Origin: an uncultured Duodenibacillus sp.
GTDB taxonomy: Bacteria; Pseudomonadota; Gammaproteobacteria; Burkholderiales; Burkholderiaceae_F
Assembly: GCA_944388865.1 (NCBI GenBank)
Contig: CALXKM010000043.1
Span: 1-64,000 of the forward strand
Reading direction: 5' to 3'
Length of the DNA stretch: 64,000 bases
This document shows, piece after piece, positions 47,293 through 53,388 of the stretch. The position numbers and the translations under genes are program-made. The notes beneath the pieces were generated by a model. The model saw only the letters and a list, made by a program, of their open reading frames with translations. It was not told the DNA's origin and searched no databases. How positions within the stretch are numbered: position 1 is the stretch's first letter; each line of letters begins with the position of its first letter.

Positions 47293-47757
47293 ATGTCGAA
47301 AAAAACACTGGTCGCTTATTTTTCCGCCTCGGGCGTCACGCGCGGCAAGGCTCTTGCAGCTGCCAAAGCTCTTGGCGCCGATCTCTATGAGATCGCCCCG
47401 GAAGTTCTCTACACCGAAGCAGACCTCAATTGGCGCAATTCGGCAAGCCGCAGCTCGGTTGAAATGGCCGACAGCGCCTGCAGGCCGTCTCTTGCCCAAC
47501 CGACGCCGGATCTGTCGGCCTACGAGGCGATTCTCGTCGGCTTTCCGATCTGGTGGGGCGTTGCGCCGCGCGTGGTCGACACTTTTCTTGACGAGGTTCA
47601 GGCCGCAGGCAAAAAAGTGGTGTTTTTTGCAACCTCGGGCAGCAGCACCATGCACGACGTCGTCGTGGGCGCCAAGCGCCTGCACCCGCAGCTTGAGATT
47701 GAATCAGCGGAACTTTTAAACGGCAGAGATGCCGCAGCCTGGGCCAAAACGCTCTAA
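47293..47757 (+). CDS. flavodoxin-like protein
   Basis: 154 aa. FMN phosphate loop AYFSASGVTRGKA near the N-terminus and the isoalloxazine loop GFPIWWGVAPRVVDTFL, as in the flavodoxin_4 group. Cytoplasmic electron carrier or quinone/aldehyde-stress reductase. Separated from the alcohol dehydrogenase gene by 2 bp, so translationally coupled; the pair recurs in bacteria as an aldehyde/electrophile response unit (inference). Confidence 0.9.
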   Translation: MSKKTLVAYFSASGVTRGKALAAAKALGADLYEIAPEVLYTEADLNWRNSASRSSVEMADSACRPSLAQPTPDLSAYEAILVGFPIWWGVAPRVVDTFLDEVQAAGKKVVFFATSGSSTMHDVVVGAKRLHPQLEIESAELLNGRDAAAWAKTL

Positions 47758-47866: not shown

Positions 47867-48658
47867 TCAAATGTCCAAAATCGGCACGTCAAGCCACAGA
47901 GCCTGGGGTGCGTTTTTTTCAACATATTCGCGCAGAAATGCTTGCGTATCCTCGACAATCACCGCCGGCGTCTGCCAAGCATCGTAGAGATTGAACGCAA
48001 AGACAGCAAGCGGCATGCTGCGGCTTGCAAGAGCTTCAAGCGACAACAGCGCGTGATTGATGGATCCGAGCTTGGCATTGGCGACAAAAATCACCGGCCA
48101 GTGGTGCTGCGCAGCGTAGTCAATCGTCAGAAGCTTGCGCGTCAACGGCACCATCAGTCCTCCGGCGCCTTCGATGAGGACGTAGTCGTAGCGGCTTTCC
48201 AAAACTGCAAGCGAGTGCTCGATGCGGGCAAATTCAATCGCTCGGGCATCAATTTCCGAAGCCAGATGGGGAGAGCCGGGAAAAGAAAAGGCCTGCGGAG
48301 CAGTCAGGCCTGCGGCGTCTTCTGGAAAACCGCAGCCCATAATGCGCCGGTGCACGCGAATGTCGACCGAAAGCGGATGGTCTTTCAGCACGCCTTGTTG
48401 CGCATATTCTTCTCCTGTCTGCACAAGCTTCATCGTGATCGTCTTTCGTCCAAGAGCAAGAAGCTCTCGGGCAATAAAGCCCGTTGCTGCCGTTTTGCCG
48501 GCATCGGTATCAATGCCGCTGACAAAGTAGGTGCCGGGCACAAGGTCTTTGATGCCGCGGCTGTCTTTTCCTGAAGGCGGAAACGAGGAAGACTGCGGCA
48601 AGGCCGCTTTTGCATGTGCTGCACGCATGGCTGCTGCTTGATCAGAAATCGTCGTCAT
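47867..48658 (-). CDS. bioD: dethiobiotin synthetase BioD
   Basis: 263 aa. P-loop GIDTDAGKT near residue 48, MKLVQTG with the carboxylate/diamine-binding Lys, and IEGAGGLMVPL. Makes dethiobiotin from DAPA, CO2 and ATP. About 40 extra N-terminal residues precede the usual start at GTYFVSG; no better start is evident between. Its first codons overlap the end of the BioB-BioA gene by 17 bp, so the two are translationally coupled. Confidence 0.95.
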   Translation of the reverse strand: MTTISDQAAAMRAAHAKAALPQSSSFPPSGKDSRGIKDLVPGTYFVSGIDTDAGKTAATGFIARELLALGRKTITMKLVQTGEEYAQQGVLKDHPLSVDIRVHRRIMGCGFPEDAAGLTAPQAFSFPGSPHLASEIDARAIEFARIEHSLAVLESRYDYVLIEGAGGLMVPLTRKLLTIDYAAQHHWPVIFVANAKLGSINHALLSLEALASRSMPLAVFAFNLYDAWQTPAVIVEDTQAFLREYVEKNAPQALWLDVPILDI

Positions 48659-50915
48659 AGAGGCCCGCTAGAAATGCTTCGAGTACTTCGCCGAAAGCGC
48701 GCGTCAAAATCTCGAGCTCTTCGTCTGTGATGACAAAAGGCGGCATCAGGTACAGAAGCCGGCCGATTGGTCGGATCCATACGCCGCGCTTGACGAATTC
48801 GGGCTGCACTCTGGCGGCATTCATGGGACGATCGGTTTCAACCACGCCGATGGCTCCGCACACGCGCACATCATGCACGCCGCTTCTGCCGGCAAAAGGA
48901 CTCAAGGATGTTTTCAACTTTGCCTGAATGCGCCTGACTTCGGAGAGCCAGTCGCGGCTTGCGTAAACGTCGAGCGCTGCACAGGCTGCCGCGCAGGCCA
49001 AAGGATTGGCCATGAAGGTCGGCCCGTGCATGAAGGCCGCTGGGGGTGTTCCCGAGACGGCGTCAGCAACAGCGTTTGTTGCGAGCACGGCCGAAAGCGT
49101 CATGACGCCGCCCGTGAGCGCCTTGCCGATGGTCATGACGTCAGGCGTAATTTGAGCCCAGTCGCAGGCAAATGTGCGGCCGGTGCGGCCAAATCCCGTG
49201 GCAATTTCATCGAGCACAAGCAGCACGCCGTATTCGGAACAAAGTCTGCGGGCGTGTTGCAAATACTGAGGATGATAAAAGCGCATCGCCCCTGCGGCCT
49301 GCACGATGGGTTCAAGAATAAAGGCAGCTGTCTCAGATCCGTGCTTTTCAAAATAAGATTCAAGAAGCGCAGCATCGCGCTCGTCAAATTCTCCGTCAAA
49401 GCGCGATATGGGACTCGGAACAAAAAAGCGCTTTTGCATGAGGCCCGAGAAAATCGCGTGCATGCCGCTTTTGGGGTCGCAAACGCTCATGGCGTTCCAT
49501 GTGTCGCCGTGATATCCGTCGGCCAGACTCATAAAGCCCGTGCGCTGCGGCTGCGAACAGGCGCTTTGATACTGAAGCGCCATTTTCATGGCTGCTTCAA
49601 CGGCCACCGATCCGGAATCAGCAAAAAAGATTTTCTGCAGTCCTCTCGGAACAATCTGCAGCAGTTTTGCGCCTAGCTCAATTGCCTTTTCATGGGTAAG
49701 TCCAGCAAACATCACATGCGGCAATTGCCGAGCCTGCTCAATGACGGCCCTGACGATGTCTGGATGTCGATGGCCGAACGAGGCGCACCACCATGAGCTG
49801 ATGCCGTCGATGAGCTCGCGTCCGTCGGCCAGAACAATGCGCGCGTCGTGAGCGCTTTTGACCATTTCCACTGACGGCGGATTGCTCGCCGAGGCATATG
49901 GGTGCCATAAATGCGCGCGGTCAAAGGCAATCGCGTCGTCGTCCTCAAAACTATAGCCTGCTTTTTTTGCGAGCACCTTATCCGAGTCAGGGGCGGTGCC
50001 GGCAGTCGTGAGCATGTCGCCGGCAATAGCGCTGTTGATGCCGGCCTTCATGGCGGCAAGCTGCACGGTTGGGCTCAGTCTTGCGCGTCCTCCGGCAAAG
50101 CGCAGCTGTGCTCGAGGATTAATGAGACGAAAGAAGGCGATGGAGCGCAAAATCGCATCATCTTCAAGAATCGCTTGCTGAGCCAAAGGGGTGCCGGCAA
50201 TGGGAGTGAGAATATTGATGGGAATTGATGGCACGCCAAGTCTGCGCAGCGCCAGCGCAAGGCTCACGCGATCGGCTTCGCTCTCTCCAAGACCAATGAT
50301 GCCGCCCGAACAAAGCTGCAGTCCGGCGCGCCTGGCCGCCTCAAGAGTTTTTACCTTGTCGGCAAATGAGTGCGTTGAGCAAAACCTCGCAAAAACATTC
50401 TCGGCAGCTTCGAGATTGCAGTGACAGCGAACGACGCCGGCCGCAGCCAAAAGCCGGAATTCCTTTTCGTTGAGAAGCCCTGCCGAGATGCAGACTTCGA
50501 GGTTGGTTTCCCGACGGATGGCTCGCACAAGATTTGCTGTCTCGCGCACCTCTCTTGCAGAGAGCTTGCGTCCTGCAGTTACAAGAGAAAATCGGCTGCA
50601 GCCTCGCTCCTTCGCTTTAGTAGCAGCGGCAACCGCCAGAGATTCATCGATGAGCGGATGCTCCTCAATGCGCGCATCGAAATGGCGAGACTGCGCGCAC
50701 CAGGCGCAGTTTTCCGTACAACGGCCGGATTTGGCATTGACGATTGCGCAGAAATTAAAGCGTCTGTCGGCAAATTGTTCTGTGATCGCTTCAGAAGCTT
50801 CAAGCAGCACGGGCGTTTGCGCCTGACGAAGTGCCTGTGCGTCTTGTTCGTCTGGAACTTGCTCAAGAGCACGGACTGCAAAATCCATCAAATCCTGCAC
50901 TGAAAGCTCAGGCAT
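48642..50915 (-). CDS. BioB-BioA fusion: biotin synthase plus DAPA aminotransferase
   Basis: 757 aa. Residues 1 to about 325 are BioB: radical-SAM cysteines C66, C70 and C73 (CTENCAWC), [2Fe-2S] ligand candidates C106, C142, C202 and R272. Residues about 328-757 are BioA: WHPYAS at the N-end, FADSGSVAVEAAMKMALQY, PLP-phosphate/Asp569 in VLVLDEIATGFGRTGR, catalytic Lys598 (TIGKALTGG). No stop, frameshift or repeat separates them; the joint reads TTAGTAPDSDKVLAKKAGYS. It thus covers the aminotransferase step and the last sulfur insertion, with BioD between them encoded next. BioF, BioC and BioH are not in this window. ATG 50915 chosen by BioB similarity. Confidence 0.93.
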   Translation of the reverse strand: MPELSVQDLMDFAVRALEQVPDEQDAQALRQAQTPVLLEASEAITEQFADRRFNFCAIVNAKSGRCTENCAWCAQSRHFDARIEEHPLIDESLAVAAATKAKERGCSRFSLVTAGRKLSAREVRETANLVRAIRRETNLEVCISAGLLNEKEFRLLAAAGVVRCHCNLEAAENVFARFCSTHSFADKVKTLEAARRAGLQLCSGGIIGLGESEADRVSLALALRRLGVPSIPINILTPIAGTPLAQQAILEDDAILRSIAFFRLINPRAQLRFAGGRARLSPTVQLAAMKAGINSAIAGDMLTTAGTAPDSDKVLAKKAGYSFEDDDAIAFDRAHLWHPYASASNPPSVEMVKSAHDARIVLADGRELIDGISSWWCASFGHRHPDIVRAVIEQARQLPHVMFAGLTHEKAIELGAKLLQIVPRGLQKIFFADSGSVAVEAAMKMALQYQSACSQPQRTGFMSLADGYHGDTWNAMSVCDPKSGMHAIFSGLMQKRFFVPSPISRFDGEFDERDAALLESYFEKHGSETAAFILEPIVQAAGAMRFYHPQYLQHARRLCSEYGVLLVLDEIATGFGRTGRTFACDWAQITPDVMTIGKALTGGVMTLSAVLATNAVADAVSGTPPAAFMHGPTFMANPLACAAACAALDVYASRDWLSEVRRIQAKLKTSLSPFAGRSGVHDVRVCGAIGVVETDRPMNAARVQPEFVKRGVWIRPIGRLLYLMPPFVITDEELEILTRAFGEVLEAFLAGLYDDDF

Positions 50916-51199
50916 GCCGGTTTCTCCATTGTTTGGTTGTTTTTTGAGCAAAAAGTTCGCCCAATGTAGCACGAAAAGCAGGGGCTTTCGAAGCAGACTG
51001 CCGGGAAAAGAGCCGGCAAGCACAAGCTCTCATAAACGAGCTGACGTGTGTGGATTCGTTTGAGTCAAGACTGTAAAAAAATGCCCGCCGAGCAACCCGG
51101 CAGGCATGAAAACAAAAGGAGAAAAATCTGACGAAACTGAGATGACGAAGATCTTCGTCTGGTGCAAGCATTGTGCCGCACAAGTCTTAACCAGCCATT
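50916..51199 (-). other. region upstream of the biotin operon
   Basis: No supported gene. Contains a minus-strand terminator (51075-51107) and a perfect 16-bp palindrome GACGAAGATCTTCGTC (51144-51159). No BirA operator is recognisable. Open frames here carry no family similarity. Confidence 0.45.
51075..51107 (-). terminator. rho-independent terminator on the minus strand
   Basis: ATGCC-C-GCCG (51081-51090) pairs with CGGC-A-GGCAT (51098-51107 region); on the minus strand the stem is followed by seven T (51074-51080 as A on plus). Confidence 0.7.
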
Positions 51200-52425: not shown

Positions 52426-52440
52426 CTTGGAGAAGCCTTC

Positions 52441-53388
52441 ATGCCAAGACCGAGACGGTGCAGGCGCGTATGCGCCGAACCAGCCATCGAGAAATTTCTG
52501 CCGCAGCCCGATGAGGGAAGGCCTTGCGTCGTCCTCAACGTTGATGAATACGAAGCGCTTCGCATCATCGACCTTGAAAAGCGCTCGCACGAAGAGTGCG
52601 CAGCACAAATGGAAATTTCGCGCACAACAGTAACGGAAATCTATGAAAAGGCGCGCTTTAAAGTTGCCGACGCCATCGTCAACGCAAAGCCGCTTGTGAT
52701 CACCGGCGGCCATTATCGAATTTGCCTCGGGGAAAACTGCACGAACTGTCCGGGAGCGCGCCATGCCAAATGTTGGGCAGCGTCTGCCCGCGGACGTCAA
52801 GGAGAAACCATCATGAAAATCGCCATTCCTTTCAAAAACGACAACATCTACCAGCACTTCGGCATGGCCGAGATCTTCAAAATCTATACGATCGAAGACG
52901 GCGCTATCGTCTCCAGCGAACTTGTTGAGTCCGCAGGCGGCCACGGCCATGTTGCTCGACTCAATGTACTCATCAAAAATGGCGTTGACTGCTTGATCTG
53001 CGGGGGCATCGGTCCTGGAGCCATTGCAGCTGTTGCCGAGGCGGGGATCAAACTTTATGCCGGCAACAGCGGCTCGGCCGATCAGGCTGCGGCTGCTTTG
53101 ATTGCCGGAGACATTGCCAACGACCTTGAGGCAGCCGCGGCGAAAAGCTGCGGACATCATCGCCGCGGACATGAGCATGGCCATTCAGAAGGGTGCGGAT
53201 GCGGCAGCGAGCATGGCCATGGATGCGGCTGCAGTCACGAACATCAGGGTGAAGAATGCGAGTGCGGGCGTGATGCCCATGGCCAAGGATGCGGGTGCGG
53301 TCATGATCACCATGCAGACGGCTGCGGCTGTCGTGGTCACCACGGGCACGGCAATGGCGGCTGCTGCGGCGGACATGGTCATTGCTAG
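52441..53388 (+). CDS. DUF134 DNA-binding domain fused to NifX-like domain and His/Cys-rich tail
   Basis: 315 aa. Residues 1-100: DUF134/UPF0251, with helix-turn-helix EECAAQMEISRTTVTEIYEK and a CLGENCTNC cluster. Residues 125-230: NifX/NafY-type dinitrogenase cofactor-binding domain (MKIAIPFKNDNIYQHFGMAE). Residues about 238-315: tail dominated by His, Cys and Gly in repeats such as GCGCG and HGHGCGC, ending GGHGHC. A metal- or cluster-sensing repressor is inferred. GGAG before ATG 52441. Nothing else nitrogenase-related is present. Confidence 0.85.
   Translation: MPRPRRCRRVCAEPAIEKFLPQPDEGRPCVVLNVDEYEALRIIDLEKRSHEECAAQMEISRTTVTEIYEKARFKVADAIVNAKPLVITGGHYRICLGENCTNCPGARHAKCWAASARGRQGETIMKIAIPFKNDNIYQHFGMAEIFKIYTIEDGAIVSSELVESAGGHGHVARLNVLIKNGVDCLICGGIGPGAIAAVAEAGIKLYAGNSGSADQAAAALIAGDIANDLEAAAAKSCGHHRRGHEHGHSEGCGCGSEHGHGCGCSHEHQGEECECGRDAHGQGCGCGHDHHADGCGCRGHHGHGNGGCCGGHGHC

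Follow-up and report, generated by a model that had tools for sequence, protein, structure and literature searches.

A bioBA fusion gene overlapping bioD in an uncultured gut Duodenibacillus fits a truncated biotin pathway that would start at KAPA

The stretch of DNA analyzed here (the window, 64 kb from an uncultured Duodenibacillus sp.) carries bioBA, a gene encoding the biotin synthase BioB and the 7,8-diaminopelargonic acid (DAPA) aminotransferase BioA in one chain, followed by bioD, the dethiobiotin synthase gene (Table 1). In what follows, G-numbers designate the genomes compared, G000 being the genome that holds the window, and L-numbers designate loci. The bioBA reading frame opens with an ATG, closes with a TGA and spans 757 codons. 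A mechanical list of open reading frames starts it further upstream, with a GTG at 51023 (793 aa); we kept the ATG of an earlier reading of this DNA (the original prediction). Both halves matched their curated NCBIfam profiles, with 348.9 bits for TIGR00433 (bioB, cut-off 225) and 543.2 bits for TIGR00508 (bioA, equivalog cut-off 405), and the Pfam matches to the product (Radical_SAM, BATS, Aminotran_3) agreed. Complete BioB and BioA domains are thus present in one uninterrupted frame, which bears out the prediction of a single fusion protein joining two non-consecutive steps of biotin synthesis. The downstream bioD that had also been predicted to overlap was found to do so by 17 nt, counted from its first ATG, and its product matches TIGR00347.

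Table 1. Position of bioBA, its domains and bioD in the 64-kb window.
Feature	Coordinates	Strand	Remarks
bioBA fusion gene	48642..50915	-	757 aa from ATG at 50915; TIGR00433 and TIGR00508 above cut-offs
BioB half, residues 24-321	49953..50846	-	C66/C70/C73 and C56/C142/C179/C202, type II-like
Junction, residues 322-330	49926..49952	-	between conserved G320-Y321 (BioB end) and F331 (BioA core)
BioA half, residues 336-745	48681..49910	-	PLP Lys598, Tyr340, Tyr468, Asp471, Arg577, Arg715
bioD, dethiobiotin synthase	47867..48658	-	TIGR00347 133.1 bits (cut-off 83.3); overlaps bioBA 3' end

The identical in-frame fusion was observed in further assemblies, one example being a 5.26-Mb contig from the Bacteroides bouchesdurhonensis isolate, and because of this recurrence chance or an assembly error is unlikely. 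A search of G000 recovered no second copy of BioB or of BioA; besides the fusion gene it gave three matches, none above 79.2 bits. In comparison with the nearest relative, L005, the ratio of nonsynonymous to synonymous substitution rates (dN/dS) was 0.146 for BioB and 0.116 for BioA; the values for BioB and BioA in comparison with L086 (0.17 and 0.17) and L087 (0.18 and 0.20) were obtained at a dS of 1.6-1.9, near saturation. Both halves are under purifying selection. Taken together, the fusion is real and, judging from its sequence, looks functional.

We then considered the catalytic residues. The radical S-adenosylmethionine (SAM) motif CxxxCxxC of the BioB half is formed by C66, C70 and C73, positions occupied by Cys in all 75 aligned BioB rows. 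In E. coli BioB, Cys97, Cys128, Cys188 and Arg260 are the ligands of the [2Fe-2S] cluster. The last three are kept in the window, where C142, C202 and R272 align with them, and Ser110 occupies the position of Cys97. The earlier claim that all cluster cysteines and the lysine binding pyridoxal 5'-phosphate (PLP) are present was correct for C66/C70/C73 and K598, and did not hold for the classical auxiliary set, that is, the type I (E. coli) ligand set. Cys56 and Cys179 of the window are found in the solved chains 8vdw and 8vcw, which are presumably type II biotin synthases, and not in E. coli BioB. These two chains were also the nearest solved BioBs, with 245.5 and 221.2 bits vs 159.1 bits for E. 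coli 1r30. After six duplicate loci had been dropped, the pattern C56/S110/C142/C179/C202 was observed in 16/16 fused rows, 10/10 rows with BioB only and, where the two genes are unfused on the same strand, 30/46 rows. E. coli itself, two rows from Marinobacterium and a further 7 of the 46 showed S/C/C/I/C, the E. coli-like pattern, and the remaining 9 matched neither pattern. With its radical-SAM motif, the loss of Cys97 and the extra cysteines common with 8vdw and 8vcw, the BioB half of the window fits a type II-like enzyme at the level of sequence pattern, and its auxiliary cluster would be of the corresponding type. According to PMC11099021, which cites Lachowicz 2024, the BioB of most anaerobes is of type II and has a [4Fe-5S] cluster.

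For the BioA half, all 19 checked E. coli positions aligned and 18 were identical, the exception being F393, replaced by I717. The identical positions include K274 (K598 in the window), Y17 (Y340), Y144, D147, R253 and R391. The score above the cut-off, together with the PLP and substrate residues K598, Y340, Y468, D471, R577 and R715, assigns this half to the DAPA aminotransferases. Going by the likeness to E. coli-type BioA, SAM is probably the amino donor.

A search for the same architecture, as proposed with the original prediction, was positive in the window's family and in Bacteroidaceae, the family of B. bouchesdurhonensis. Fused genes were called from stop-to-stop frames and all counts of the distribution are minimum counts. 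Within the window's family, at least seven of 67 genomes had a fused bioBA (G000, G004, G008, G009, G052, G043 and G064), as had at least nine of the 201 sampled genomes of Bacteroidaceae. Among the 80 best named loci, three were fused: those of an uncultured Duodenibacillus (Sutterellaceae) that belongs to the window's genus, of Candidatus Aphodousia faecipullorum and of the isolate B. bouchesdurhonensis. A sample of Bacteroidota, with three candidates scored per genome, gave 2/296 fused, both already in the counts above. No row spanned both halves free of stops among 53 genomes from other families of the window's order, or among 247 genomes of the phylum of G123 (Thermodesulfobacteriota, by the name of L008), where G123 and G708 span both halves with one stop. 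Another ten members of the window's family encode BioB separately, no match of BioA strength being listed for them. Three further candidates, G258 (frame length 785), G286 (809, with 3 TAA) and G761 (887), were rejected as fusions on the basis of stop-to-stop frames, which show separate genes; they had looked fused because the frame-length measure apparently counts through stops. The long frame of G798 matched one half only, and no BioB was found in it on checking.

The two enzymes are joined with a near-zero linker, since few variable residues separate the conserved end of BioB (G320-Y321) from the conserved core of BioA, which begins at F331-D332. No in-frame ATG, GTG or TTG occurs from residue 316 to residue 348; because of this, a separate BioA starting at a usual codon would lose Tyr340. 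Nothing was found in favor of cleavage of the chain in vivo to give BioB and BioA as two proteins, fused and separate forms both occurring among relatives, and with a junction that is short and conserved on either side and the cost in Tyr340 of a separate start, we regard it as highly improbable. Among the unfused loci, 46 rows had both genes on the same strand and 37 of these had starts within 400 nt; in 16 of the 37, the bioA start precedes the bioB stop with an overlap of exactly 11 nt. All 16 are named Bacteroidales or came from the Bacteroidaceae search. Most likely, a small indel between overlapping bioB and bioA genes gave the fusion directly. This may have happened before or after horizontal transfer into the window's family, and either order fits.

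Such a frameshift, occurring on one or a few occasions, could also have joined the overlapping genes and simply been tolerated, one chain bringing no advantage. The frequency of 11-nt overlaps in unfused relatives and the patchy occurrence of the fusion in both families speak for this. The frame is, on the other side, open throughout in fused sequences of the window's family that have diverged to 56-82% identity to the window, which suggests, weakly, some value of the fused state. We therefore consider a neutral fusion a plausible explanation, somewhat short of an even chance.

The phylogenetic trees bear on how the gene reached this family. The BioB tree had 75 rows, of which 17 belong to the window's family (7 fused and 10 with BioB only). 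These 17 formed one group, with a support of 100 in the Shimodaira-Hasegawa-like approximate likelihood ratio test (SH-aLRT), and the radiation around it consists mainly of BioBs from Bacteroidales. In the concatenated tree, whose 40 rows include 15 of the 16 fused ones, the seven fused rows of the window's family grouped together (100) inside a 32-row Bacteroidota group (98). In the BioA tree (109 rows, with the BioA-only rows thinned), ten rows represent other families of the window's order, and seven of them formed a distant group (100). The simplest reading of these trees, though not a proof, is a transfer from a Bacteroidales-like donor into the window's family.

The number of fusion events was also considered. 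The fused rows do not form one clade in the best concatenated tree: two state changes suffice, of which the starred branches force one, and three gains are needed if gains alone are allowed. The single-domain trees required five (BioB) and four (BioA) state changes. Constraining all fused rows to one clade gave p = 0.0226 in the approximately unbiased (AU) test and p = 0.191 without L123, L114 and L061, neither test counting fusion origins directly. The two changes may be a single gain followed by one split, and three separate gains fit too. Because a single gain with a later split fits the distribution, repeated selection for the fusion is not demonstrated. This matters for the possibility that the fusion couples the two activities, either because the two SAM sites draw on a common local pool of SAM or because they keep BioD between them for channelling. 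Two families from different phyla retain the fusion with its near-zero linker, which favors such coupling. Against it, the BioD step intervenes, hence there is no direct channel; the genes of close Bacteroidales relatives overlap and are unfused; ten genomes of the window's family have the separate BioB noted above; and the distribution may reflect a single gain. Functional coupling thus appears quite unlikely, and the benefit through SAM sharing suggested in the original prediction found no support.

To place bioBA in its pathway, 19 genomes of the family were searched for the other biotin genes. The best BioF match in G000 reached 25 bits, vs 304-382 bits in G003, G007, G033, G043 and G064, and the best BioC match reached 50 bits, vs 132-168 bits in G033, G043 and G064, so that no BioC comparable to that of related operons was found. 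No BioY was found in G000, and E. coli BioP/YigM had no match there. A BirA ligase was detected (138.4 bits, cut-off 83.1). The setting differs from that assumed in the original prediction, as neither BioF nor an operon-type BioC was found; the pathway looks truncated and, because the upstream enzymes were not found, would start at 7-keto-8-aminopelargonic acid (KAPA). G004, G008, G009 and G052 are likewise without a comparable BioF (25 bits or less), BioC or BioY, G008 having one weak BioP match (24.6 bits). In G043 and G064, bioBA, bioF, a bioG-like gene, bioC and bioD are clustered. G017, G031 and G041 (genus g9, including the Aphodousia record) have BioB and no BioF, BioY or BioA-strength match, and in G055 the 6.7-kb contig with BioB carries no BioA. 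BioY was present in only three of the 19 genomes (G001, G003 and G007, from the window's genus), all without BioBA. In G003 and G007, likewise without BioBA, a BioF-like gene scored 382 and 338 bits, respectively, short of the curated cut-off. No BioB remnant was found in the N-terminal extension of the BioA of G033.

PMC6593275 describes incomplete pathways in gut genomes, among them variant A3 (BioA, BioB, BioD and BirA, 68 genomes) and variant A1 (BioB only, 169 genomes), makes the case for salvage of KAPA, DAPA and dethiobiotin in such genomes, and reports BioY in 240/275 genomes with an incomplete pathway. The gene content of the draft genome G000, with BioA, BioB, BioD and BirA and no BioF found, fits the A3 truncated pathway, and the bacterium probably finishes biotin from scavenged KAPA with the help of BioD. 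It could instead make its own KAPA through an unrecognised BioF and a pimelate route. Unidentified enzymes for the pimeloyl part, upstream of a BioF that is present, were proposed for 74 other gut species (PMC6593275). The score gap for BioF between G000 and its five relatives, the equally low scores in G004, G008, G009 and G052, and the salvage argued for such genomes in the same source make a complete pathway improbable.

Returning to salvage, a more specific version would have BioBA and BioD as a dedicated KAPA-to-biotin module that keeps the first and last enzymes at 1:1 and is fed by a carrier unrelated to BioY or BioP. We put this forward tentatively and regard it as rather unlikely. If true, the family would record how a transferred Bacteroidales pathway shrank step by step, from the full cluster (G043, G064) to BioBA with BioD (G000, G004, G008, G009, G052) to BioB alone (G017, G031, G041). 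Other members of genus g11, with BioB alone or with BioB and BioA apart (G033, G065), speak against so simple a series. Scanning 20 proteins flanking bioBA-bioD revealed no transporter, except for a major facilitator superfamily (MFS) gene in G009. This gene (L178, 4701-5945) is codirectional with bioBA, some 300 bp upstream of it, and is a possible candidate for precursor uptake in G009 only. Control of bioBA by BirA was also considered and rejected: in the 335 upstream bases, the best operator-like palindrome had 8 mismatches, no better than chance (mostly 6-8 in 200 shuffles). The BirA of G000 (L210, 3114-3983, contig C10) matches ligase models only, with no DNA-binding domain found. Because of the lack of an operator-like site and these matches to ligase models only, BirA control is unlikely.

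Overall, we propose with good confidence that a bifunctional BioBA acts with BioD in a truncated KAPA-to-biotin pathway, the fusion having arisen by an indel in a Bacteroidales-like operon. KAPA released by neighbouring microbes would be taken up and converted to DAPA by the C-terminal BioA half with PLP, probably with SAM as the amino donor. The bioD product would then close the ureido ring to give dethiobiotin, and the N-terminal, type II-like radical-SAM BioB half would insert sulfur to give biotin. One chain would mainly mean co-production in a fixed ratio, and channelling is not needed.

Several observations weigh against this proposal. G000 is a draft (98.8% complete, 53 contigs), which bears on the absences. 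None of the 19 genomes, those with the full cluster included, passes the curated BioF or BioC cut-off, so that the absence of these two enzymes rests on the score gap. KAPA uptake is a step that we infer, neither BioY nor BioP/YigM having been found in G000, and G052 (88% complete) had no biotin ligase match. In the BioA tree, L092, L093 and L097 fall outside the distant Burkholderiales group, L093 being placed without support beside the Bacteroidota group, and for this reason the transfer is not airtight. Finally, an AlphaFold model (14 rows, with L123 omitted for a run of N) was poor for the BioA half, with a mean predicted local distance difference test (pLDDT) score of 76 and a root-mean-square deviation of about 12-14 Å; it is too weak for the domain arrangement to be read from it.

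Among the neighbouring genes, a flavodoxin gene is convergent with bioD in the window (47293-47757, + strand), in L005 (7866-8327) and in L177 (5161-5769, from the window's genus). It was recognized by Pfam Flavodoxin_4 in the window and in L005 and by BLAST in L177, the L005 and L177 genes having 82% and 56% identity, respectively, to the flavodoxin of the window, and no flavodoxin match was found in the G009 locus L178. This flavodoxin could serve as an electron donor for BioB, which is only a lead. Further along the window, a gene at 52435-53385 (+ strand) encodes DUF134 and dinitrogenase iron-molybdenum cofactor domains with a long His/Cys/Gly-rich tail, possibly metal-binding.

These results extend BioB-BioA fusions from Bacteroidaceae to gut Betaproteobacteria, with a BioB of the type II-like (anaerobe) form, and set the fusion in a truncated pathway that would depend on a precursor from other microbes. 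The presence of full, shortened and BioB-only states in one family makes both cross-feeding and the missing KAPA importer testable.

The architecture itself is already known in print and in databases, and the novelty implied by the original prediction does not stand, since genomes of Bacteroidaceae and seven of the window's family have it. Proteins of Bacteroides fragilis bear the name BioAB. A 'biotin biosynthesis bifunctional protein BioAB' is cited as Swiss-Prot P53656 in PMC5837055 with both domains in one chain, as in the window, the two being likened by name and description only. A literature search by phrase, whose coverage leaves out most subscription journals, gave PMC5837055 as the one relevant paper among the matches listed and no study devoted to the BioB-BioA fusion, and the available parts of PMC7645780 and PMC10790697 contain nothing on it. 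The A3 pathway (PMC6593275) resembles that of G000 in having BioA, BioB, BioD and BirA without BioF, salvage being proposed there; it differs in that G000 has BioA and BioB fused into a single protein and gave no match to BioY or BioP. The BioBA of B. bouchesdurhonensis (L007) is like that of the window in its domain order, its near-linkerless junction and 50% identity over the whole protein, but there bioBA is followed by bioF, a bioG-like gene, bioC and bioD, whereas in the window it is followed by bioD only. The labels of these L007 genes are putative, given from family features together with their matches. The cysteine pattern of the type II chains 8vdw and 8vcw is also that of the window, whose BioB is in addition fused to BioA. 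The plant BIO3-BIO1 protein is likewise a fusion of biotin enzymes that includes BioA, but with BioD as a different partner. In the window's family, L194 (4987-7473, G049) carries an 829-aa BioD-like/BioA frame with a separate BioB-like gene adjoining; since this frame and BioBA both occur, two kinds of biotin fusion are found in one family.

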